NCBI GenBank assembly: GCA_016208165.1
Contig: JACQYL010000098.1
Coordinates: 1 to 64,000, forward strand
Source: Deltaproteobacteria bacterium
Lineage (GTDB): Bacteria; Desulfobacterota; Desulfarculia; JACQYL01
Direction: 5' to 3'
DNA length: 64,000 bases
Every line of letters begins with the position of its first letter. The first letter of the stretch is position 1. The notes beneath the pieces are model-generated. The model was given only the letters and a program-made list of their open reading frames with translations. It had not been told where the DNA came from and ran no database searches. Positions 19,769-32,974 of the stretch are shown here, in pieces. The translations under genes were made by a program, and so were the position numbers.

Positions 19769-20836
19769 TTACAGATTCTCCACGTACCCGGCCACGAGAC
19801 TTCCGACCTCACGGGTGCCTATGCCCATCTTTCCGGCGTTCATGCTCCCGAGGTCTTCACTCACGGCCTTCCGAACCGCGCGGGATATTCGATCCGCCCC
19901 TTCGTGCAAAGTCAGGTGCTCGAGCATCATCTGGGCCGCACAGATGGCCGCGATCGGATTGATCTCGTTCTTGCCCGCATACTTCGGAGCGCTACCACCG
20001 ATGGGTTCGAACATGGAGACGCCCTCGGGATTGATGTTTCCCCCGGCCGCCAATCCCATTCCGCCCTGAATGATCGCTCCCAGATCCGTTATGATGTCTC
20101 CGAACATGTTGTCCGTAACGATCACATCAAACCACTCCGGATTCTTCACCATCCACATGCAGATGGCGTCCACATGGGCGTAGTCCGTGCTCAGGTCGGG
20201 ATACTCTGGCGCCATCTCATTGAACGCCCGCTGCCACAAATCGAAAGCATACGTAAGAACATTCGTTTTTCCGCACAGCGTCAACTTCTTTCTATCGTTC
20301 CGGCGGCGGCACGTTTCGAATGCATAGCGAAGGCACCGATCCACCCCTTTTCGAGTGTTTATCGACTCCTGTATCGCCACCTCGTCCTTCGTGCCCTTCC
20401 GTAGAAAGCCCCCGCCTCCGGTGTAAATCCCTTCCGAGTTCTCCCGCACGACCACGAAATCGATATCCTCGGGGCCCTTGTTCTTCAGCGGGGTCTCCAC
20501 GCCGGGAAACAATTTGACCGGACGCAGATTGATGTAAAGGTCCATTTCAAATCGCATCTTGAGAAGTATTTCCTTCTCGAGGATGCCGGGAGTCACCTCC
20601 GGATGACCTATAGCGCCCAAAAGGATGGCATCAAAACTCCTTAGTTCATCTAAGATCCCATTGGACAGCAACTCGCCGGTTCTCAGGTAGCGCTCTCCGC
20701 CAAGATCGAATATTTGAAAACGAAAGGATGCATTCGTCACACGGCTTACGGCTTCCAGTACTTTAACGGCTTCCGCAACCACCTCGGGACCTGTAGCGTC
20801 CCCCGGAACCAACGCGATGTCGTATTCGTTCTTCAT
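19769..20836 (-). CDS. leuB: 3-isopropylmalate dehydrogenase
   Basis: About 355 residues of the isocitrate/isopropylmalate dehydrogenase family. Visible motifs are the N-terminal [11 protein letters not shown], the substrate-binding LRPVKLFPG and [13 protein letters not shown], the metal-binding [12 protein letters not shown], and the NAD-loop [14 protein letters not shown]. It oxidatively decarboxylates 3-isopropylmalate for leucine and should also process 3-methylmalate in the citramalate route to isoleucine. It is the last gene of the minus-strand branched-chain operon, separated from ilvC by 340 bases that hold two perfect hairpins. An in-frame ATG at 20854 would add six residues; 20836 (MKNEYD) fits the family. 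Confidence 0.9.
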
Positions 20837-20854
20837 GATTTCATTCCTGCGCAA

Positions 20855-21177
20855 GTGTTTCCATTCCCGTTGCCGGATTCCTATTCAGTCGTCGCCGTTG
20901 TTTTGCCTGAAAGCCCGGCATACGACCAGCGGCTTCGATTCCGAAAGCCCGAACACAGTAGCCACCTCATTCCGAGTCGGTCAAGCTCCGGAACGACATT
21001 CCCCGCCGTAACTTCCCGAGCGCCAGTGAGGGGCGCAATCGCCCCTGCTGAACACAATGGGTCCGCCAACATACCCACGTCACCGAAAACGGCGTTTAAA
21101 GAGTGTTCTTTAAACGGAATCCGTTTCCGGTGAGGAGTAGGCACAGAGAAAAGAATCGGAAAGGAGGTTTCTGTGGG
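20855..21177. other. ilvC-leuB spacer with two perfect hairpins
   Basis: About 320 bases with no coding frame inside an otherwise compact operon. Two inverted repeats are present: AGGGGCG-caat-CGCCCCT (21029-21046) and GTTTAAAG-agtgtt-CTTTAAAC (21094-21115). Neither has a T-run on the minus strand. They may stabilise the upstream mRNA or mark a processing site. A separate leuB promoter cannot be excluded. Confidence 0.5.
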
Positions 21178-22170
21178 TCAGGACTGTTTCAGCCATCCCA
21201 TCATGGAGCGCAACTTCCGCCCGATCGTTTCGATAGGATGTTCTTTCGCCTGCTTGCGCCAGGCATTCATCACGGGCCTGTTTGCCTGGTTCTCAAGGAT
21301 CCATTCCCTTGCGAATTCGCCGGACTGAATCTCGTCGAGAATCAGCTCCATCTCTTCGCGGACTTCGGGGCCGATGATACGGTTACCTCGGGTCAGGTCA
21401 CCGTATTCCGCCGTGTCGCTGATGCTGTACCTCATGTGGCTGATGCCGCCTTCGTACATAAGGTCGACGATGAGTTTCATTTCGTGCAGGCATTCGAAGT
21501 AGGCGATCTCCGGGGCGTAGCCCGCTTCCACTAGAGTCTCGAAACCGGCGCAAATCAGGCTGGAAACCCCTCCGCACAGCACCGCTTGTTCACCAAAGAG
21601 GTCTGTTTCCGTCTCATCCCGGAAGCTGGTCTCTATGACGCCGGCTCGAGTCGCGCCGATACCTTTGGCGTAGGCCAACGCCTTCTGCAACGCCTTGCCG
21701 GTAAAATCCTGATGAACGGCTACCAGTGAAGGAACCCCCGCGCCTCTTTCGTATTCCCTTCGGACCAGGTGCCCCGGACCTTTCGGCGCCACCATGGCGA
21801 CATCCACAAACTCAGGCGGATCGATCTGCCCAAAGTGTATATTGAAGCCATGGGAAAACATCAGCATCTTCCCTTCGGTCAAGCCCGGCAGAATTTCATT
21901 TCTGTACAGAGCAGCCTGCCGCTCGTCCGGCACCAGGATCTGGATGACTTTGGACATGGCTACCGCCTCAGTAACGGGTAACACGTCAAAGCCAAGCTTC
22001 TTGGCTCGATCGAAACCGGGCCCGGGCTGCTTCTGTCCCACGACCACGTCTACCCCGCTGTCCCGGAGGTTCTGTGCCTGCGCATGTCCCTGGCTGCCGA
22101 AGCCAAGGACCGCCACTTTGATTCCCTTCAACAATGAGAGATCCGCGTTGTCTTCATAAAAGATGTTCAT
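21178..22170 (-). CDS. ilvC: Ketol-acid reductoisomerase
   Basis: 330 residues, the class I length. The Rossmann motif [13 protein letters not shown], the metal-site region [22 protein letters not shown] and the C-terminal KARI domain ([13 protein letters not shown]) are intact. It isomerises and reduces acetolactate and acetohydroxybutyrate for valine/leucine and isoleucine. The cofactor loop reads [12 protein letters not shown] where NADPH enzymes usually have an Arg and Ser (as in VGLRKGSxSW), so cofactor preference may differ. The ATG overlaps the ilvN stop (ATGA) and has an AAGGGG ribosome site. Confidence 0.95.
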
Positions 22171-22670
22171 TTTTTTGTCCCCTTTTTGCTTCGCGCCATA
22201 GCAATAACTCCCGTCCGAGCGATTTCAAGACTCCCCACCGGTCTCAGCAGGTCTATAAGCGCTTCTATTTTTCCCCTGTTTCCAGTCACTTCAATCGTAT
22301 AATCGTTTGGCGAGACGTCCACGACCTTGCACCTGAAGATATCCGCGATTCTCAGCACTTCCGCGCGGTGCTCGGCATCGGACTGCACCTTGACAAGCGC
22401 CATTTCCCGCTCGACACAGTCGCTGTCCGAAAAATCAGTGACCTTAACGACATTTACCAACTTACGCAACTGTTTGTTGATCTGTTCCTGAATCTGAGCC
22501 ACCCCGTACGAGACCAAAGTGATCCGGGATAGCTCGGATTCCAGTGTCTCCGCCACATTCAGGCTGGCTATATTGAACCCGCGGCCACTGAAAAGGCCCG
22601 CCACCCGGCTCAGCACCCCCGGCTCGTTATCCACCAAAATCGAGATCGTATGCCGTTCCTCCTGATTCAT
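22167..22670 (-). CDS. ilvN: Acetolactate synthase small (regulatory) subunit
   Basis: About 167 residues. It has an N-terminal ACT domain ([30 protein letters not shown]) and the ALS-small C-terminal domain ([18 protein letters not shown]). It binds valine for feedback inhibition and activates the IlvB catalytic subunit. The open frame extends far upstream, but the extra part is an out-of-frame reading of ilvB. The ATG at 22670 starts the ACT domain exactly and lies 29 nt after the ilvB stop. Its TGA overlaps the ilvC ATG, which couples their translation. Confidence 0.94.
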
Positions 22671-22699
22671 TCCCTTCTTCCTTTCGCTTTCCGTCGCGC

Positions 22700-24460
22700 T
22701 CACACGAGAAGCATGTCCTTTATGGCCGCGCCCGCCGGTACCATGGGATAAACACATTCTTCGCGTTCGACCACAAAGTCCATAATGACCGGCGCGTCGA
22801 GTTCCAGAGCCTTTCTTATCACCGGTTCCACTTCTTCCGGCGTGGTGGCTCGCATTCCCACCGCGCCATAGGCTTCGGCCAGTTTGACAAAGTCGGGCGC
22901 GTGGCTCATGTCCGTGGCCACGTATCGCCGGTCCTTGAACAGTTGCTGCCACTGCCTCACCATCCCCAGGTAGCCGTTGTTCAGGATGGCCACCTTTACC
23001 GGCAGCTTGTTTTCAACGGCCGTGGCCAGTTCCTGTATATTCATCTGGATGCTTCCGTCTCCGGCGATGTCGACCACTGTACGTCCCGGACAGGCGGTCT
23101 GCGCCCCAATGGCCGCAGGCAAGCCAAATCCCATGCACCCCAAGCCCCCGGAGGTAACGAAGCTGTTGGGCCGATCGAAGTGGTAGTATTGCGCGGCCCA
23201 CATCTGGTTTTGCCCCACCTCCGTGGTAATGATGGCCTCTCCCCGAGTCAGTTCATAAATCTTTTCAACTACGAACTGAGGTTTTATGTTCTTACACTGC
23301 GTGTACGCCAGGGGTGCGGTCTCTTTCCACGCTCGGATTTGATCCAGCCAGGGTCTCCTCTTTTCGGAAACATTGGCCAGATCCTCGTGATCCAGCATTG
23401 CGTTCAACTGCTGGAGCGTGATTTTGCAGTCCCCGACAATCGGTACGTTCACCGGAACGTTCTTCTGGATGGACGTTGGATCGATATCGATATGGATGAT
23501 TTTCGCATGGGGAGCAAAGGAGTCGATTCTGCCGGTCACCCGATCGTCGAAGCGGGCGCCGATACCGATCAACAGGTCACACTCGGTGATGGCCATATTC
23601 GCTCGGAACGTACCATGCATGCCGAGCATGACCAGCCACAGATCGTGTGTTCCGGGAAAGCCTCCCAGACCCATCAGGGTGGTGGTCACCGGAGCGGTGA
23701 TTTTCTCCGCAAGCGTGCGAAGTTCCGCGGACGCTCCGGACAGAATTACTCCGCCACCCCCGAAAATCACCGGCCGTTTGGACTTGGCGATCAGTTGTGC
23801 CGCCTTCTTGACCTGCCCTTTGTGGGGCTCGTACTTGGGGCTGTACCCTTTCATGCAGGCCGCCGGCGGTAAAACGAATTCCACCTCGCCCGCCATGGCG
23901 TCCTTGCAGAGATCCACGACTACGGGGCCCGGACGACCGGAGCGCGCAAGATAGAACGCTTCCCGCACCGTCTCCGCCACACGGGATGCTTCTTTCACCA
24001 GGTAATTGTGTTTTGTGCAGGGTCTGGTGATTCCTACGATGTCCACTTCCTGGAAAGCGTCGTTTCCGATGAGACTGCTGGGTACCTGACCGGTGAAGAC
24101 AACCAGTGGGATGGAGTCCATGTAGGCGGAGGCGATTCCGGTAACCGTGTTGGTCGCCCCAGGTCCACTGGTGACAAGGCACACACCCACCTTGCCGGAC
24201 GTCCTGGAATAGGCGTCCGCGGCGTGAACCGCCGCCTGTTCGTGCCGTGTCAGCACGTGTCGAATATCGTACTGGGGCATGGTGTCGTAAATGTCGATCA
24301 CCGCGCCCCCGGGATAGCCAAAGATGATCTCGACACCCTCGTCTTTCAACACCTCGAAGAGTATCTTAGCGCCGGTCAGCTTTGTGCCTTTTCTCTTTTT
24401 GCCGGGTGAACCCGGACCATTTCCATTGTGTCGTGACAACGATGACTCCTTTTCGTTCAA
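22700..24460 (-). CDS. ilvB: Acetolactate synthase large (catalytic) subunit
   Basis: A ThDP enzyme of about 586 residues. The catalytic Glu lies in [18 protein letters not shown]. The central domain has [10 protein letters not shown], and the ThDP motif [15 protein letters not shown]...NNGYLGMV is complete. It condenses two pyruvates to acetolactate, or pyruvate with 2-oxobutyrate. The first possible ATG (24547) overlaps the end of ilvD by 65 nt and its residues read like the wrong frame of ilvD, so a TTG at 24460 is preferred with moderate certainty. It sits between ilvD and ilvN in the operon. Confidence 0.93.
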
Positions 24461-24482
24461 TACCGTATGCCTGGCCGTCCCC

Positions 24483-26000
24483 TCAGCGAACGATCGCCCC
24501 GGTGGAGGCCGAGGTGACCAATCGTGCATACCTGTCCAGAACGCCACCGGAAATTTTGGGCTTCGGAGGATTCCATGATTGCTTCCTTCGAGCGATTTCG
24601 TCGGTGTCCACTCGAAGATGGATTCGTTTCGCGGGAACGTCTATTTCTACGGTATCACCCTCTCGAACGAGGGCGACAAGGCCCCCTTCCATAGCTTCCG
24701 GGCTGACGTGGCCGATGGACGCGCCTCGGGTGGCTCCGGAAAATCGTCCGTCCGTGATCAGAGCCACGGAATCATCCAATCCCATGCCGGCGATGGCCGA
24801 CGTTGGAGTCAACATTTCTCGCATACCCGGCCCCCCTTTGGGGCCTTCGTATCGGATGACAATCACATCCCCGGGTTTTATCCTACCGGACAAAATGGCC
24901 TCCGTCGCTTCCTCTTCTCCGTCGAAGACTCTGGCCGGTCCCTTGTGTCGCAGCATGGACTCGACCACCGCGGACTGCTTTACCACGCATCCCTCCGGAG
25001 CCAGGTTGCCGAACAAAACCGCCAGCCCTCCTTGCCGGGACACGGGCTCGTGTCTGCTACGGATGACTTCCCCGTCGGCTTCCCGGACGGCGGACAGGTT
25101 CTCTCCAACGGTTTTCCCGGTGACCGTCATGGCCTCTTCCCGCAGCACCCCCAGCAGAGAAAGCTCCTTCATCACCGAAGGGATTCCTCCGGCCACATGC
25201 AGGTCTTCGATATGGTGTTTTCCCGCGGGACTTAGTGAACAGAGCTTGGGACAGGACTCGCTGATCCTATTGACCTCCTCGAGATCGATACGAATGCCCC
25301 TCTCGTGAGCAATGGCCAACAGGTGGAGGATGGTGTTGGTCGAGCATCCCAAAGCCATATCCACGGACAAGGCGTTGTGAAAAGCTTCCGATGTCATGAT
25401 TCGGCTCGGCGTAATCCCCTGTTCGAGAAGCCTCACCGCCTGAACGCCCGCGTGTTTGGCCAAGCGTAATCGATCCGAGTAGACCGCCGGTATGGTCCCA
25501 TTTCCGGGCAAACCCATGCCCAGACTTTCGGTAAGGCAATTCATGGAATTCGCGGTGAACATGCCCGCGCACGATCCACACGTAGGGCACGCCTGCTCCT
25601 CCAATTCAGCCAGATCCCCCGGCTCCATCCGTCCCGCCTTGACCGCTCCGACCGCTTCAAAGACCTGAACCAGGTCTACCTTCCTTCCCTTGTACAATCC
25701 CGCCAGCATGGGGCCCCCGCTCAAAACCACCATGGGAATATCCAGCCTGGCCGCCGCCATCAGCATCCCTGGAATGATCTTGTCGCAATTCGGGACCATC
25801 ACCATGGCGTCAAACGCATGGGCGCACGCCATGATCTCCACGGAATCGGCAATCAGCTCCCGGCTTACCAGAGAATAGCGCATGCCCTCGTGGTTCATGG
25901 CAATACCGTCGCATACCCCTATGGTTCCGAAGGCGACGGGTGTTCCGCCGGCCATATATATCCCCGCCTTTACCGCTTCGACCACTTTGTCCAGGTGCAT
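24483..26000 (-). CDS. ilvD: Dihydroxy-acid dehydratase (5' end frameshifted)
   Basis: The open frame from ATG 26000 gives 505 residues with the iron-sulfur Cys motifs [14 protein letters not shown] and [16 protein letters not shown], and the C-terminal [15 protein letters not shown]. It dehydrates dihydroxy acids in all branched-chain routes. Family members are about 550 residues. The missing N-terminus is present upstream in the same frame ([28 protein letters not shown]) but has no start codon. A good start, GAGGCGG then ATGATG at 26124-26119, lies one base out of frame. Removing one A of the AAA at 26116-26118 would restore a protein of about 546 residues. Either the DNA carries a true lesion or a sequencing error, or translation shifts here. 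Confidence 0.88.
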
Positions 26001-26186
26001 GTGTCCGGGAATAATATCGTTCGCGGAATTGGCGATGCCGATCAGCGGCCTTCCAAATTCCTCGTCGGTGAACCCCAGCGCCCTGAACTCTCCAGCGCCG
26101 ATCCGGGCTTGCGAGTTTCATCATTCCGCCTCTTATGAACTTCCTTTGATTGATAACCAATATACGCTCACTATCCTGCACGCGGA

Positions 26187-26696
26187 CTACACGACCCGAT
26201 GGGGGCTCAGCTTGCGCTTCCGGATATAGGGAACCAAACCGCCTTCGTCGATGAGATCCAGCATAAACGAAGGAATCGGCGCCGAGCGGAACACGTTCCC
26301 GCTGGTCAGATTCCGAATCTCTCCCTCTTCGATATCCACGAACAGCCGGTCTCCTTGTCGAATCGCGTTGGCGGCTTCGTACGATTCCAGAAGGGGCAAA
26401 CCGATGTTGAACGCGTTTCGGTAAAAAATCCGAGCGAAACTGGACGCTATGATACACGAAATCCCGGCCCCCTTTATGGCCAGGGGTGCGTGTTCTCTGG
26501 ACGACCCGCATCCGAAATTAGCGCCGGCGACGATGATGTCTCCGGCCTTAATGCGATTTGCGAATCCCGGGTAAGCGTCTTCAAAACAGTGCCGGGCCAG
26601 AACCGATTCATCTGTAGTGGTCAGAAACCGCGCGGGAATTATGACATCCGTGTCCACGTTGTCTCCAAACCTGATCGCCGTACCCTCGATGCTCAC
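26187..26696 (-). CDS. leuD: 3-isopropylmalate dehydratase small subunit
   Basis: 169 residues, the normal LeuD length, with FGDNVDTDVIIPARFL at the start and the GANFGCGSSREHAPLAIKG motif. It forms the swivelling domain that, with LeuC, isomerises isopropylmalate and probably converts citramalate to 3-methylmalate. The start is decided by the ribosome site: AGGAGGAG followed five bases later by GTG at 26696. Upstream in-frame ATGs at 26804 and 26711 would add unrelated residues. It ends about 60 nt before the ilvD start. Confidence 0.93.
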   Translation of the reverse strand: MSIEGTAIRFGDNVDTDVIIPARFLTTTDESVLARHCFEDAYPGFANRIKAGDIIVAGANFGCGSSREHAPLAIKGAGISCIIASSFARIFYRNAFNIGLPLLESYEAANAIRQGDRLFVDIEEGEIRNLTSGNVFRSAPIPSFMLDLIDEGGLVPYIRKRKLSPHRVV

Positions 26697-26793
26697 GTAA
26701 CTCCTCCTCATGCGACGCGTTTGATCATGAAATGACAAAAGCGGATTTCGTTTTGTCTCAACTGCAACTAGACGTTTCCCCTGCGGGCCGGGC

Positions 26794-28053
26794 TCAGATC
26801 TCATCCGGAAGGCCGACGCGTCCCAGGACCGCAGACGCCGCCGCTACCGCCGGGTTCGCCAGATATACCTCGCTTTTCGGATGACCCATTCGTCCGACAA
26901 AGTTCCGGTTGCTCGTGGACACGGCTTTTTCTCCGGAGGCCAGAACGCCCATGTGCCCCCCGAGACAGGGACCGCACGTGGGCGGTCCGATCACTGCCCC
27001 GGCGTCCAGAAAGATATCGAACAGGCCTTCGGACAGAGCCTTTCTGTACACGTCCCTGGAACCCGGTATGACGATAAGGCGGACTCCCTCGTGGACTTTC
27101 CTGCCGGTCAGCACCTGGGCCGCAGACCGCAAGTCTTCTATACGGCCGTTGGTGCAGGACCCGACGAACGCCTGATCGATGCGCACATCTCTCACCTCGG
27201 AAACCGGTTTCGTGTTGTCCGGGGAATGCGGACAGGCCACCTGGGGTTCGATGTCTTCCACATGGAAGGTTACCACCCGTTCGTATTCTGCGTCCGGGTC
27301 GCTGCCGTAGAACACTCCTAAACGGCGGGATCTTTCCGCCACATAGGCACGGGTGATTTCGTCAGGAGGGACAATGCCGTTCTTGGCTCCCGCCTCGACG
27401 GCCATGTTCGCCATGGTGAGCCGTCCCTCCATGGACAGGGATTGGATGGCCGGTCCGGAAAACTCCAACGTCCGGTATCGGGCACCTTCCACACCCAAGA
27501 CCCCGATGGTGTATAAAACCAGATCCTTTCCCTGTACCCATTTTCGAAGTTGACCTTGATAGACCACTTTGATGGTTGACGGTACTTTCAGCCATATCTC
27601 GCCTGTGGCCAGGACGCCGGCCAAATCCGTGGAACCGACGCCTGTGGAGAAGGCTCCCAAAGCTCCGTACGTGCAGGTGTGGCTGTCGGCGCCGATGATC
27701 AGATCCCCGGGCAGAACCAGTCCCTTTTCCGGCAGTAAGACATGTTCGATTCCGCTGTCCCCTAGCTCGTAGAAGTGAACGACGCCCTGCTCTCCGGCAA
27801 ATTCCCTCATAACCCGAGCCTGTTCGGCAGACTCGATGTCTTTGTTGGGCACGAAGTGGTCCTGTATAAGGGCCACCTTCGACGGGTCGAACACACGGTC
27901 GGCCCCCATCTCTCTGAACACCTTGATCGCCAGTGGGGCCGTGATGTCGTTGGCCAAGGCTAAATCAACTTTGACTTCCACAATCTCGCCCGGGGTTACG
28001 CACGCTTTTCCGGCGTGATCGGCCAATATCTTCTCGGTAATAGTCATCGGCAT
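26794..28053 (-). CDS. leuC: 3-isopropylmalate dehydratase large subunit
   Basis: 419 residues of the bacterial/archaeal short LeuC type. The aconitase-family motifs are present: GADSHTCTYGALGAFSTGVG, the cluster Cys in AFVGSCTNGRIEDL, and GPPTCGPCLGGHMG. With LeuD it interconverts 2- and 3-isopropylmalate, and is expected to handle citramalate/2-methylmaleate as well. It follows leuA by 15 nt and precedes leuD by roughly 97 nt. The short form is often shared between leucine and citramalate pathways, which suits the cimA gene in the same operon. Confidence 0.94.
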   Translation of the reverse strand: MPMTITEKILADHAGKACVTPGEIVEVKVDLALANDITAPLAIKVFREMGADRVFDPSKVALIQDHFVPNKDIESAEQARVMREFAGEQGVVHFYELGDSGIEHVLLPEKGLVLPGDLIIGADSHTCTYGALGAFSTGVGSTDLAGVLATGEIWLKVPSTIKVVYQGQLRKWVQGKDLVLYTIGVLGVEGARYRTLEFSGPAIQSLSMEGRLTMANMAVEAGAKNGIVPPDEITRAYVAERSRRLGVFYGSDPDAEYERVVTFHVEDIEPQVACPHSPDNTKPVSEVRDVRIDQAFVGSCTNGRIEDLRSAAQVLTGRKVHEGVRLIVIPGSRDVYRKALSEGLFDIFLDAGAVIGPPTCGPCLGGHMGVLASGEKAVSTSNRNFVGRMGHPKSEVYLANPAVAAASAVLGRVGLPDEI

Positions 28054-28068
28054 CTCGGTCTCTCTTTC

Positions 28069-29604
28069 CTATAGTTCCGGCCTGACAACCGGATTCAAAC
28101 TCAAATACCTCAAGCGATTCAGACCGTTCAGAAACGCTTTCGCACTGGCCGTGATGATATCCGGATCCGCGCCTTTGCCCAGGGCAATGGTGCCGTTTTC
28201 CTGCAACCGGACGGTAACCTCCCCCTGAGCGTCCATGCCTCCGGTTATGGCATTCACGGAGAATCGAAGGAGTTTGGCGCTCGTTTTCGTCAATTTGGCG
28301 ATGGCGTTGAACGTTGCGTCTATGGGGCCGACTCCGAATTCAGCTCCCGTGAATTCTTTTCCATCCACCTCCAGCTTCACGGTAGCCGTGGGAACCGCCA
28401 CCGAACCGCTTACCACATTCAGGTAGTTGAGCTTGTAGTGATCCGGCACTCTCAAGAGTTCCTCGGCGACCAGCGCCTCGATGTCTTCATCGAGCATCTC
28501 CTTGCGCTTATCCGCCAGCTCCTTGAAACGAAAGAACAAACGATCCAAGTCCGGCTTCGAGAGATCGTATCCCATGGACTCGAGCCGTTTCTTGAATGCG
28601 TGGCGCCCCGAGTGTTTTCCCAACACGAGCGAACTGCTTTCCAGTCCCACGTCCGCGGGGCGCATAATCTCATAGGTGGTCTCATGCTTTAGCATGCCGT
28701 CCTGATGGATACCTGCCTCGTGTGCAAAAGCGTTTGCGCCCACGATCGCTTTGTTCGGCTGCACGATAATGCCCGTAATCATGCTGACCAACCGGCTTGT
28801 CGGGTAGATCAATTGCGTATTGATACCGGTTTCGAACGTCAACAGATCGTTACGGGTGCGGATGGCCATAACGGTCTCTTCCAACGAAGTGTTGCCCGCA
28901 CGTTCCCCAATGCCGTTCATGGTGACTTCGATTTGCCGTGCTCCGCTCCGGACCCCGGCGAGGGTGTTGGCCGTCGCCATTCCGAGATCGTCGTGACAGT
29001 GAACGCTGATAATGGCTTTGTGTATATTCGGCACGTGGGTGCGGACATACGCCACCGTTTCCGCGAATTCATGCGGCATCGAATATCCAACGGTGTCCGG
29101 AATATTGATGGTGGCGGCTCCCGCTTCTATGGCCGCTTCAAATATTTTGCACAAAAAATCCCTGTCGGAGCGAGTCGCGTCTTCAGCGGAAAACTCGACG
29201 TTCCCGGTAAAAGACTTGGCATATTTGACGGCTTCCACCGCGTCCTTCAACGCCTGTTCTCGGCTGATCTTCAATTTGTATTTCAGGTGGATATCCGACG
29301 TGGCGATGAATGTATGAATCCTGGGGTGGGCCGCACCCTTGATGGCGTTCCAGGCCCGATCCAGATCCGGCTTATTGGCTCGCGCCAAGCCCGCCACCTG
29401 ACAGACGCCGAGTTTTTGCGCGATCTGCTCGACCGCGGCAAAATCTCCATCCGAGGCTGCCGGGAAACCCGCTTCAATGATATCCACGCCCATCCGCTCG
29501 AGCTGGGAAGCCAGTCTCAGCTTTTCCGCGGTATTCATACTGGCGCCGGGTGACTGCTCTCCGTCGCGGAGAGTGGTATCGAAAATGTATACGCGTTCGG
29601 ACAT
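28069..29604 (-). CDS. leuA: 2-isopropylmalate synthase
   Basis: 511 residues. The TIM barrel begins FDTTLRDGEQSPGASMN, with VHCHDDLGMATANTLAG and the metal-site HxH region, followed by GANAFAHEAGIHQDGMLK and a C-terminal regulatory LeuA dimer domain (about 380-511), which normally binds leucine. It condenses 2-oxoisovalerate with acetyl-CoA, the first committed step to leucine. It has a GAAGGAG ribosome site. It is separated from cimA by 158 nt that hold a long inverted repeat. Confidence 0.95.
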   Translation of the reverse strand: MSERVYIFDTTLRDGEQSPGASMNTAEKLRLASQLERMGVDIIEAGFPAASDGDFAAVEQIAQKLGVCQVAGLARANKPDLDRAWNAIKGAAHPRIHTFIATSDIHLKYKLKISREQALKDAVEAVKYAKSFTGNVEFSAEDATRSDRDFLCKIFEAAIEAGAATINIPDTVGYSMPHEFAETVAYVRTHVPNIHKAIISVHCHDDLGMATANTLAGVRSGARQIEVTMNGIGERAGNTSLEETVMAIRTRNDLLTFETGINTQLIYPTSRLVSMITGIIVQPNKAIVGANAFAHEAGIHQDGMLKHETTYEIMRPADVGLESSSLVLGKHSGRHAFKKRLESMGYDLSKPDLDRLFFRFKELADKRKEMLDEDIEALVAEELLRVPDHYKLNYLNVVSGSVAVPTATVKLEVDGKEFTGAEFGVGPIDATFNAIAKLTKTSAKLLRFSVNAITGGMDAQGEVTVRLQENGTIALGKGADPDIITASAKAFLNGLNRLRYLSLNPVVRPEL

Positions 29605-29685
29605 GATGTGCTCCTTCTATCTCGTCAATAAGTATAGTTTCTTGCTGCAAACGAACGAACATCCGAAAGGAACGGCATCAGTGCC

Positions 29686-29721
29686 TGCCGCAGGCTTCTC
29701 GTATCGAGTCGCCCTGCGGCA
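29686..29721 (-). repeat. Inverted repeat in the cimA-leuA spacer
   Basis: TGCCGCAGGC (29686-29695) pairs with GCCCTGCGGCA (29711-29721) with one bulge, and CTCG/CGAG pair inside the loop. There is no T-run. It may be an mRNA stability or processing hairpin that sets cimA:leuA expression (inference). Confidence 0.5.
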
Positions 29722-29762
29722 GTTCTCCTCCTGCGTACAGTTTCTCTGTCCATGTTGTAGCC

Positions 29763-31340
29763 TCATGTCTGGTTATTTTTGGATTTGCTCAACTTGTATT
29801 GGATGCTGTCTACCAGCGCCTGCCAGCTTGCGTCGATGATGTTGCTCGAGACTCCGATCGTGCTCCAGATGTCCTTGGAATCCCGCGATTCGATGAGCAC
29901 CTTGACCCGGGCAGCCGTGCCTTCAGTGCCTTCGATGACCCTTACTTTGTAGTCCACCAGGTACATTTCCTGTAGCTCGGGAAAAAACATGTAGAGGAGT
30001 TTTCTCAATGCATTGTCCAAAGCACTGACCGGCCCGTCGCCTTCCGCGGCGGTGATCTCGTGTTCCTGGCCTACCGAGATTTTAATGGTCGCGTGCGAAG
30101 TAGCTTCCTCGTTTCCGTTCTTTTCAATGGTAACCCTGAAATGTTCGAGGCAAAACGGCTCGATAAACTGGCCGATGGCTTTCTTGACCAGCAACTCGAA
30201 CGAGCCTTCCGCCGCATCGAACTGGTATCCCAGATCCTCGAGCTTCTTAACCTCGCGCACGATTTTGGCGCTGTCCATACCGTTTCCACCCAGAGCGACT
30301 CCCATCTCGTTCGCCTTGTAAGCGACGTTGCTTTTCCCGGACAGGTCCGATATGATTACGCGCCGCCGGTTTCCCACTAGAGATGGGTCCAAGTGCTCGT
30401 AGGCGGAAGGGTTCTTCATGACCGCGCTCACATGAACTCCGCCCTTGTGCGCGAACGCGCTTCGTCCGGCATAAGGCCGCTGATTATTGGGCGGTCGATT
30501 GGCCAGGTCGCTCACGTACCTCGAAAGCTCTGTTATCTGGCTCATGCGCTCGGAGGGAATACACGAGTAGTCCATCTTGAGCTGCAAATTCGGTATCAGG
30601 GTGATCAGATCCGCGTTTCCGCATCGCTCGCCGTATCCATTCAGTGTTCCGTGGACCATCGAGACGCCTTCCCTAACCGCGGCAATACTGTTGGCAACGG
30701 CCAGGCCGCAATCGTTATGGGCGTGGATTCCCAGCGGAGTCTGCATTCCGGACCGGACGTCTCGCACGATTTCGGAGATCTGGTGGGGCAAGCCGCCCCC
30801 GTTCGTATCGCAGAGAACGATCACGTCCGCCCCGGCTTGGACCGCGGCTTCGAGGGTTCTCATGGCATAATCGGGATTTCGTCGGTATCCGTCGAAAAAA
30901 TGCTCCGCATCGTATATGACCTCTCGCCCATGCTCCTTGAAGAAGCTTACCGTATCCGAAATCATGGAACAGTTTTCATTCAGATCGATTTCGAGAACCT
31001 CGAGCACATGCAGGTCCCAACTCTTGCCGAAAATGGCGACCGCGGACGTTTCGGAAGTGATCAGGGATTGAATGTTATCGTCGTCTTCAACCCGAGTGCG
31101 AGGCCTTCTAGTGCTGCCGAAGGCCGTAAGCTTGGCGCGCTCTAAAGGGATGGATTTTGCCATCTGGAAGAATCGATGGTCCTTCGGATTGGACCCCGGC
31201 CATCCGCCTTCAATGTAATGGAATCCCATCTCGTCCAGACGTCGGACGATTCGGACCTTGTCCTCCGCCGAAAAATTGACCATTTCCCCTTGCGTCCCGT
31301 CACGCAACGTCGTGTCGTAGATGGTGATGCTCGTGCTCAT
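29763..31340 (-). CDS. cimA: (R)-citramalate synthase
   Basis: 525 residues of the CimA branch of the LeuA superfamily. It begins IYDTTLRDGTQGEMVNFSAED rather than the LeuA form. GIHAHNDCGLAVANS and GRSAFAHKGGVHVSAVMKN are intact, and a C-terminal regulatory domain follows. It condenses pyruvate and acetyl-CoA to citramalate, giving 2-oxobutyrate without threonine. No threonine dehydratase gene is present here, consistent with isoleucine made from pyruvate as in Geobacter. It is the first structural gene after the attenuator; its GGAGAG ribosome site follows directly on the terminator T-run. Confidence 0.94.
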   Translation of the reverse strand: MSTSITIYDTTLRDGTQGEMVNFSAEDKVRIVRRLDEMGFHYIEGGWPGSNPKDHRFFQMAKSIPLERAKLTAFGSTRRPRTRVEDDDNIQSLITSETSAVAIFGKSWDLHVLEVLEIDLNENCSMISDTVSFFKEHGREVIYDAEHFFDGYRRNPDYAMRTLEAAVQAGADVIVLCDTNGGGLPHQISEIVRDVRSGMQTPLGIHAHNDCGLAVANSIAAVREGVSMVHGTLNGYGERCGNADLITLIPNLQLKMDYSCIPSERMSQITELSRYVSDLANRPPNNQRPYAGRSAFAHKGGVHVSAVMKNPSAYEHLDPSLVGNRRRVIISDLSGKSNVAYKANEMGVALGGNGMDSAKIVREVKKLEDLGYQFDAAEGSFELLVKKAIGQFIEPFCLEHFRVTIEKNGNEEATSHATIKISVGQEHEITAAEGDGPVSALDNALRKLLYMFFPELQEMYLVDYKVRVIEGTEGTAARVKVLIESRDSKDIWSTIGVSSNIIDASWQALVDSIQYKLSKSKNNQT

Positions 31341-31351
31341 GCTTACTCTCC

Positions 31352-31390
31352 AAAAAAAAATCCGTTATCAGGAGCCTGATAACGGATTTT
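31352..31390 (-). terminator. Attenuator terminator before cimA
   Basis: A perfect 16-bp stem (AAAATCCGTTATCAGG and its complement) with only CT between the arms is followed on the minus strand by an uninterrupted T-run reaching 31352. It lies 11 nt before the cimA ATG, so transcription ending here would silence the whole nine-gene operon. Confidence 0.93.
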
Positions 31391-31430
31391 GTTCTTGAGC
31401 TTCTTGAACCAATCTACATTACCAGGCTCC
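31371..31430 (-). promoter_or_regulatory. Antiterminator pairing of the branched-chain attenuator
   Basis: GGAGCCTGGTAA (31430-31419), inside the last codons of the leader peptide, can pair over 12 consecutive positions (one G-U) with TTATCAGGCTCC (31382-31371), the 5' arm and loop of the terminator. The two structures are mutually exclusive. A ribosome stalled at the Ile/Val/Leu codons would leave the first segment free to form the antiterminator. A ribosome reaching the stop codon would cover it and let the terminator form. Confidence 0.85.
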
Positions 31431-31527
31431 TCTGTGTGTTCCGCAGAACAACCAGCAGCAGTAGGCATACTACTACGCCTACTACGGGAATAATGCCGAT
31501 AATGTTGATGTTGGTTCGAGCGTTCAT
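31414..31527 (-). CDS. Branched-chain amino acid operon leader peptide (37 aa)
   Basis: A 37-codon frame from ATG 31527 to TAG 31414. Residues 7-28 run INIIGIIPVVGVVV, then C, then LLLLVVL: five Ile, seven Val and five Leu codons among 22. In the whole peptide 19 of 37 residues are branched-chain. This is the design of ilv leader peptides, whose translation senses charged Ile, Val and Leu tRNAs. The distal codons overlap the antiterminator segment. The hydrophobic run could also be read as a membrane helix, but the position, pairing and downstream terminator make a leader peptide far more likely. The ribosome-binding site is weak. Confidence 0.88.
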   Translation of the reverse strand: MNARTNINIIGIIPVVGVVVCLLLLVVLRNTQRSLVM

Positions 31528-31561
31528 GCTATACTCAATACGTTTCTTAGGAATTTACGCA

Positions 31562-31590
31562 AGGGTAGTTCTTCCCGGACTTGAAGTCAA
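31562..31590 (-). promoter_or_regulatory. Candidate promoter of the branched-chain operon
   Basis: On the minus strand TTGACT (31590-31585) is followed after 17 bases by TACCCT (31567-31562). An A-tract just upstream could act as an UP element. The predicted start near 31555 would leave about 28 nt before the leader peptide. The -10 match is poor, so confidence is modest. Confidence 0.4.
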
Positions 31591-31645: not shown

Positions 31646-32974
31646 TCAGTTCGCGGTGGTGATCTTCTTTTTCCTGTTCGATCTGCGGCGGCTCCGATGT
31701 CCGCTCCGCCTTTTGGGAGGTCCGACGGCGCTACTTTCCATCTCGTTTCTCAAGTCGAGCAGCGGCTCTTCGCTCAAGCCCAGGGCATGCCGGAGGACCC
31801 ACGCTAGATCAAACGCCTCATCGAGGGCCATGCTCTTGAACAACTTCAACCAGCCCTTCCGAAGCCCCGGCTTCTCCGTCTCCGCAGACAAAACGTATTG
31901 GCCTGCAACAATTCGCTTGACCTGATTCCTGACGGCCTTTGGGATGTTCAGGCGAACCCCGGGAACATTGAGCAAATCATGTACGGCTCCGGAACAATCA
32001 GCCGTTGGAGCGAGATGTTCCAGTTCCTTCCTCAGGGGCCAGTAAAATACGCCGGCCCATAAAACGGCGTCCGTCAGTTCCCTGTTCCGCGCTCCTCTGC
32101 ATACATCCATCGCTCCCAGAGTACGCCAAAAAACATCCGGCAAGCGCCCCTCGCCATCCCGTACCACCGAAAGCTCGGGCAGTATATGGGCCAAAACCCC
32201 GGTTTCATCGAGGTACCTGTAGCCCTTTTCAATGCCGGACTTGCGCATCAGGCGCAACAAATCCTCCTGAATCCGGGAAGCCGGGCACAGGAGAATCTTG
32301 TTCGCATGGGCCTTCATCGCATCCCAAGTGGTTTCCTCGATTTGGAAATCCAGATTTGCACCAAATCGAATTCCTCGCAGGATGCGAATGGGGTCTTCCT
32401 GAAATCGGATATCCGGATTCCCGATGCACCGAATCACCCGCTTGCGAATATCCTCCATCCCGCCGACGTAGTCGATGATCGTAAAATCCGACACGTCATA
32501 GTAAAGAGCGTTGATGGTGAAGTCCCGTCGAAGAGCGTCTGCCTCGGGTGTCCCGAACGTATTGTCCCGGCAGAGCATCATGCTGTCGCCCACGGTCTCT
32601 TTGAACTCGGACTCACGGCGAAATGTGGATACCTCTACCGTCTTGCCCCCCTTGAACACAACGTGGACGATTCGGAACCGTTTTCCCACCAGCCACGAGT
32701 TGGCGAACAGCTTTTTCAACCGTCCGGGGCGGGCGTCCGTGGCTACATCGAAATCTTTGGGTTTGTTTCCCACCATGAGATCCCGTACTCCGCCTCCGCA
32801 GAGATAGGCGAGATGACCCTGTGTCTTAAGGCGATACAGGACCTTAAGTACCTCATTATCCATCATTTTTCTGGATATGGGATGTCTATCCCGGGGAATG
32901 ACAAGGGGAATCGATCCGTGCGACGATTCTCGACAAATCTCAGTTTCCAGTTTTTCCGCTTGCATTTCGCTCAT
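31646..32974 (-). CDS. pcnB: Poly(A) polymerase / tRNA nucleotidyltransferase family protein
   Basis: 442 residues. PcnB-type proteins begin with a DRHPISR motif, seen here at about 29-35. The nucleotidyltransferase core GGGVRDLMVGNKPKDFDVAT, with its catalytic Asp pair, and the ALRRDFTINALYYD and FQEDPIRILRGIRF regions follow. The C-terminal tail is strongly basic (RRSGHRSRRRSNRKKK), as in poly(A) polymerases that act on RNA 3' ends. CCA-adding enzymes share the core but lack this head and tail, so PcnB is favoured. It is monocistronic and divergent from the ArsR gene. Confidence 0.87.
   Translation of the reverse strand: MSEMQAEKLETEICRESSHGSIPLVIPRDRHPISRKMMDNEVLKVLYRLKTQGHLAYLCGGGVRDLMVGNKPKDFDVATDARPGRLKKLFANSWLVGKRFRIVHVVFKGGKTVEVSTFRRESEFKETVGDSMMLCRDNTFGTPEADALRRDFTINALYYDVSDFTIIDYVGGMEDIRKRVIRCIGNPDIRFQEDPIRILRGIRFGANLDFQIEETTWDAMKAHANKILLCPASRIQEDLLRLMRKSGIEKGYRYLDETGVLAHILPELSVVRDGEGRLPDVFWRTLGAMDVCRGARNRELTDAVLWAGVFYWPLRKELEHLAPTADCSGAVHDLLNVPGVRLNIPKAVRNQVKRIVAGQYVLSAETEKPGLRKGWLKLFKSMALDEAFDLAWVLRHALGLSEEPLLDLRNEMESSAVGPPKRRSGHRSRRRSNRKKKITTAN

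Follow-up and report, generated by a model that had tools for sequence, protein, structure and literature searches.

Organization of the locus

The window, that is, the whole stretch of 64,000 nucleotides analysed here, carries on its minus strand an operon for branched-chain amino acid biosynthesis, preceded by a short leader ORF and an intrinsic terminator. The nine-gene operon proposed in an earlier note on this DNA was recovered in full by NCBIfam matches, in the order cimA, leuA, leuC, leuD, ilvD, ilvB, ilvN, ilvC and leuB. Coordinates of the operon genes are mechanical ORF bounds, and the features of the locus are as follows.

31646-32974, minus strand: pcnB, upstream neighbour on the same strand
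31585-31590, minus strand: predicted -35 element TTGACT (from the sequence; TTGAC also lies upstream of the leader in relatives)
31562-31567, minus strand: likely -10 element TACCCT (17-nt spacer; a weak match, not called by the consensus scan)
31414-31527, minus strand: leader ORF of 37 codons, MNARTNINIIGIIPVVGVVVCLLLLVVLRNTQRSLVM* (from the sequence; equivalent frames in about 70 loci)
31444-31509, minus strand: control-codon run, leader codons 7-28, with 5 Ile, 7 Val and 5 Leu
31495-31505, minus strand: segment 1, anti-antiterminator strand, ACATTATCGGC, in Ile codons (leader codons 8-11; from the predicted MFE fold and family-wide synonymous shuffles)
31417-31430, minus strand: segment 2, antiterminator strand, GGAGCCTGGTAATG, within the last leader codons (from the 2:3 duplex and covariation)
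31371-31384, minus strand: segment 3, CGTTATCAGGCTCC, partner of segment 2 (antiterminator) or segment 4 (terminator) (from folding and covariation)
31352-31390, minus strand: intrinsic terminator (segments 3:4), 15-bp stem, 4-nt loop and T-run (from the sequence and covariation over 58 sequences)
29763-31340, minus strand: cimA, citramalate synthase, first structural gene (TIGR00977, 766 bits, cutoff 450)
19769-29604, minus strand: rest of the controlled operon, leuA to leuB (NCBIfam matches)
28069-29604, minus strand: leuA (NCBIfam match)
26794-28053, minus strand: leuC (NCBIfam match)
26187-26804, minus strand: leuD (NCBIfam match; true start may differ)
24483-26000, minus strand: ilvD (NCBIfam match; true start may differ)
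22700-24547, minus strand: ilvB (NCBIfam match; true start may differ)
22167-22952, minus strand: ilvN (NCBIfam match; true start may differ)
21178-22170, minus strand: ilvC (NCBIfam match)
19769-20854, minus strand: leuB (NCBIfam match)

The 323-nt gap between ilvC and leuB (20855-21177) holds no recognised terminator, and in relatives leuB is the final gene of the same operon; we infer that leuB belongs to the operon transcript. An inverted repeat without a T-run lies in this gap, near GTTTAAAGA/TCTTTAAAC. The nine-gene order is identical in locus L185 and nearly identical in L170, L184, L189, L197 and L202. IlvC of the window is 33-39% identical to IlvC of the relatives' operons, against mostly 55-72% for the other genes, and ilvC may differ in origin from its neighbours.

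Leader ORF, terminator and antiterminator

The leader ORF runs from an ATG at 31527-31525 to a TAG at 31416-31414; it is a short frame, predicted to be translated, just upstream of the operon. Its ribosome binding site is weak, a GAG about 10 nt upstream of the ATG. Codons 7-28 hold 17 Ile, Val or Leu codons and five others, and the length, coordinates and codon counts first read from the sequence (37 codons; five Ile, seven Val and five Leu in 22) were correct. When the intergenic region was shuffled 5000 times with its dinucleotides preserved, no short ORF reached 17 Ile, Leu or Val in a 22-codon run; the maximum was 15.

The terminator had been described as a perfect 16-bp stem. Its arms are indeed complementary over 16 nt, but the formable stem has 15 bp with a 4-nt loop, because 16 bp would leave a loop of 2 nt. 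Between the end of the T-run at 31352 and the cimA ATG at 31340 lie 11 nt, as had been said, and none of 1500 dinucleotide shuffles reached a 15-bp stem with a T-run (maximum 8). The proposed 12-position pairing of GGAGCCTGGTAA (31430-31419) with TTATCAGGCTCC (31382-31371) was likewise found, with one G-U pair, and grows by two bases on each side to 14 bp. As duplexes, the 2:3 antiterminator and the 3:4 terminator are nearly equal (-22.5 and -22.7 kcal/mol), and the two are predicted to be mutually exclusive. The predicted fold of the whole leader combines 1:2 with 3:4 and lies 6.7 SD below its own shuffles.

Both helices covary in an alignment of 58 sequences, which was fitted to the 3:4 structure and not to 2:3. 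For 2:3, 92.9% of the cells are paired and 28 are changed on both sides (shuffle mean 9.8; 0/500 as high); for 3:4, 97.5% are paired, with seven pairs and 51 cells changed on both sides (shuffle mean 15.1 and 0/500 as high for the cells; 0-2/500 overall). Slid controls drop the pairing to 21-53%. These controls and the codon tests weigh more than the covariation counts, since related sequences inflate the latter.

Ribosome position and segment 1

Stalling was simulated by folding only the RNA downstream of the ribosome, either to the end of segment 3 or over the full transcript. In the transcript ending at segment 3, the 2:3 pairing had a probability of about 1.0 with A-site codons 6-29, a range that includes all control codons, and of 0 once the A site lay at codon 32 or any later codon up to the stop. 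Over the full transcript, the terminator is the winning fold for A-site positions 30 and beyond, the stop included, which places the boundary between the two structures just beyond the last control codon (28). The footprint folding suggested in the earlier note thus gave the antiterminator for stalls on control codons, in the transcript ending at segment 3, and the terminator for a ribosome at the stop codon; in the model, stall position decides the RNA fold. When the full transcript is taken to equilibrium, a ribosome stalled at codon 13 or at codons 16-19 (some of the Ile and Val positions) favours the terminator; for the switch to work, 2:3 would therefore have to form before segment 4 is made, which is assumed here. 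Other attenuators likewise rely on this order of events.

Among the 58 members, 749 of the 801 control codons fall in the antiterminator zone in simulated stalling, and the stop codon lies in the terminator zone, with 2:3 blocked, in 57. Three loci (L219, L220 and L221) gave no antiterminator in the simulation, and the leader of L171 stops ahead of segment 2.

It had been held that only three RNA segments are needed, so that translation of the leader alone would gate segment 2, with no functional 1:2 pairing. Segment 2 lies wholly inside the leader frame, and a ribosome at the stop codon would cover it. Moreover, the 1:2 duplex of the window (-11.5 kcal/mol) is not clearly above shuffles when taken by itself: its z against synonymous shuffles was 0.1 in an earlier test and -1.4 in a larger one. 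The family gives a different picture. The 1:2 pairing was tested by synonymous-codon shuffles because the MAFFT alignment of segment 1 is unreliable; leader peptides were kept fixed and codons were redrawn by the usage of the downstream genes. The real pairing was stronger than this null in 51/58 members (mean z -1.45, Wilcoxon P 2e-9) and in 38/43 of a non-redundant set (P 1e-9), while the earlier test, with 28 members and codon usage from one flanking gene, was weaker (mean z -1.0). The test shows selection for the predicted 1:2 pairing across the family, which is why a four-segment attenuator, with segment 1 as the fourth, is favoured and the three-segment version is considered unlikely.

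Proposed mechanism

We propose that the element is, with high probability, a ribosome-mediated transcription attenuator that ties the nine genes to charged tRNA-Ile, tRNA-Val and tRNA-Leu. When all three tRNAs are charged, the ribosome would reach the leader stop codon and cover segment 2, leaving segment 3 to pair with segment 4, so that transcription would end ahead of cimA. A shortage of even one of them would stall the ribosome at a control codon, before it reaches segment 2. Segment 1 would then be unable to hold segment 2, which would capture segment 3 once this is transcribed, so that the terminator is blocked and the operon read. If the leader goes untranslated, 1:2 pairing should tip the balance towards the terminator. 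Of all steps in the proposal this one is the weakest, and such super-attenuation is uncertain because ribosome-free RNA cut at segment 3 prefers 2:3 to 1:2 in folding. Anatomy, exclusivity, covariation, stall geometry and the codon-to-operon match given below were all established in silico; actual termination, read-through and the starvation response we infer from them.

Distribution across the phylum

Searching with CimA brought up 80 named loci, with the top ones in Deltaproteobacteria, Desulfobacterales and Syntrophaceae MAGs. The same element stands immediately before cimA in 12 other loci, with leaders that align; in Desulfobacterales it precedes ilvD or ilvB, with cimA further down the operon, and one genome (G060) has a second copy before leuA. 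A covariance model spanning segment 2 to the terminator (R1) matched 25 of the 39 genomes chosen from the CimA search and 44 of 395 genomes evenly sampled from the phylum, the latter in 36 of 246 genera. Operons beginning with cimA, ilvD, ilvB or leuA follow at 49 of the 51 places fetched from the 395-genome search. The exceptions are L217, described below, and L234, a weak match that was rejected as an ordinary terminator without a leader. Within the genome of the window, the only hits were the element itself and its palindromic terminator on the other strand, an artefact and not a second copy.

Absence of the leader frame or of the alternative pairing from relatives had been named as the finding that would count against attenuation; both, together with the control codons, are kept in about 70 loci. 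The earlier description, an operon led by cimA and serving all three amino acids, holds for the window but does not extend to the family, in which operons led by ilvD, ilvB or leuA or having cimA only share the element, with re-tuned codons.

Control codons and operon content

The control codons match the amino acids made by the operon. The Leu share is 0.40 in operons with leuA and 0.16 in those without; the Ile share is 0.83 in cimA operons without leuA and ilv genes (cimA alone or cimA-leuCDB) against 0.38; and the Val count is 4.1 with ilv genes against 0.8 without (permutation P about 5e-5 for each, uncorrected for kinship). Operons with leuA alone have 10-11 Leu codons in the leader. The match also holds between copies in one genome, a comparison that removes kinship as the cause of the shift: in seven genomes with two elements on different branched-chain operons (G060, G074, G133, G277, G302, G344 and G472) the codons shift in the predicted direction. 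In G060 the cimA-leuC leader has I7 L2 V0 and the leuA leader I3 L11 V0; in G133 the cimA-leuA leader has I7 L7 V0 and the ilvBNC leader I2 L1 V6; and in G277 the cimA leader has I10 L1 V1 and the ilvB-ilvC-ilvD leader I3 L3 V4. Because even copies that share a genome show the match, the family can serve as a natural experiment on how an RNA sensor is re-tuned.

These results bear on two other explanations. In the first, the terminator merely ends the pcnB transcript and the short ORF encodes a small hydrophobic membrane protein, with no regulation. The run of Ile, Val and Leu is hydrophobic, and pcnB, on the same strand, does lie upstream, with 294 nt between it and the end of the terminator. 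However, a -35-like box stands between pcnB and the leader, and 56 of the 58 members (55 of the 57 others) have TTGAC, a likely -35, ahead of the leader start, mostly at 50-90 nt. Across the phylum the terminator stays with the leader and the branched-chain genes; the leader sequence diverges except for its Ile/Leu/Val make-up, which follows operon content, and its codons preserve more RNA pairing than synonymous choice would predict. We consider this explanation very improbable.

In the second, a metabolite or ppGpp riboswitch, a T-box or a protein-binding leader controls the terminator and the ORF is incidental. T-boxes control branched-chain amino acid genes elsewhere. The same is true of ppGpp riboswitches (PMC10272879). 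Nevertheless, Rfam 15 (4227 families) gave no match in the window at the gathering or a relaxed threshold, and in ten relatives only tRNAs at the gathering threshold; T-boxes, riboswitches and known leader families were rejected on these grounds. The leader, segment 2 and the terminator hold the conserved structure, and the alignment shows no additional conserved stretch resembling an aptamer; a riboswitch would also leave the codon re-tuning unexplained. Its probability is also very small, and ribosome-mediated attenuation is retained as the preferred reading.

It is a fair question, to which we lean slightly towards no, whether one module has been copied before different branched-chain operons throughout the phylum, mainly with its codons rewritten, so that the leader peptide reports the amino acid served. 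If this were true, the leader codons would indicate use of LeuCDB for isoleucine in L171 and L195 and an undescribed isoleucine-linked route in L217 (G402). More generally, they offer function assignment for leuCDB paralogs and unknown genes in uncultured anaerobes.

The L171 and L195 leaders are Ile-only and stand before cimA-leuC-leuD-leuB operons. They fit, because LeuCDB enzymes can act in the citramalate route, and this suggests that LeuCDB serve that route to isoleucine in both. In L217 (401-480; G402 C70 4923-5002), an Ile-rich copy with leader MNNNYANIIIIIRAIGIALSLLPVIMGIQRKPPDLIM heads an operon of acyl-CoA dehydrogenase, EtfB and EtfA, which may mark an undescribed isoleucine-linked pathway.

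Relation to known attenuators

In the E. coli trp attenuator, segment 2 follows the leader stop codon. The element differs from it in this respect, having segment 2 inside the leader frame, and in the amino acids concerned. Both follow the same logic of 1:2, 2:3 and 3:4 pairings and ribosome position (PMC1183508). Attenuators of trp, his, leu and ilv operons are an established principle (PMC1183508), and those of ilvGMEDA, ilvBN and leu are named among the leader-peptide attenuators (PMC1183508, PMC3766115). The enterobacterial ilvGMEDA, ilvBN and leu systems share with the element an Ile/Val/Leu leader ORF, exclusive pairings and a terminator before the first gene. In contrast to them, the element has no Rfam match, heads a cimA-led operon and has segment 2 fully inside the leader frame. 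Moreover, cimA, leuA, ilvB and ilvD operons all use one RNA module, which has the same terminator core but re-tuned codons.

The ilvBNC attenuator of Corynebacterium (ilvB-II uORF motif) also combines a leader ORF rich in branched-chain codons with a terminator, antiterminator and anti-antiterminator before ilv genes (PMC11857589, PMC10272879), but it has been described in one genus, upstream of ilvB, whereas the element here occurs in many families of another phylum and before several operon types. The ilvB-OMG and Leptospira ilvB motifs have predicted leader ORFs of this kind before ilvB, their function being predicted too (PMC10272879); they are restricted to ilvB and were unmatched in our Rfam scans, which is informative only if both are in Rfam.

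Published work places amino-acid attenuators mainly in the Gammaproteobacteria, reports very few transfers and notes that isoleucine/valine attenuators are missing from Rfam (PMC3766115). The papers searched contained none on such an element in this phylum; a 2010 survey (Lopatovskaya, Seliverstov, Lyubetsky) could hold earlier predictions. The kind of mechanism is long known; what is new is a phylum-wide, codon-retuned module outside Rfam, in a phylum of mostly uncultured bacteria. It provides a phylum-wide set of attenuators outside the Gammaproteobacteria, with a searchable model.

Origin of the operon and other leaders in the class

The element was found in one of 63 genomes of its own class, that of the window, and is absent from the 62 classmates. 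CimA of the window's operon (19769-31340; contig C98 of G000) is much closer to that of other classes of the phylum, with 61-68% identity to the CimA proteins that follow a cimA-proximal attenuator elsewhere and 47-53% to those of classmates; the estimated contamination of the genome is 4.4%. Given the classmates without the element and this affinity of CimA, horizontal acquisition of the operon or misbinning of the contig is possible. Either event leaves the reading of the element unaffected.

One weak match in a classmate (G019 C28) was rejected as the element, being a trp attenuator. At this locus (L223; about 30133-30212, minus strand), in a genome of the window's class, the leader MTIRQGQNLVNGLNWWWWQIHIKEVCSPFDLH has four Trp codons; a strong terminator comes after it, ahead of trpE and the trp operon. 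A different short leader lies 350 nt upstream of cimA in L008, L009 and L012, which belong to a single genus of this class. Its last residues are ...LIRI or IIAIARI, a GC-rich hairpin with a T-run comes next, and the whole is possibly an independent Ile attenuator.
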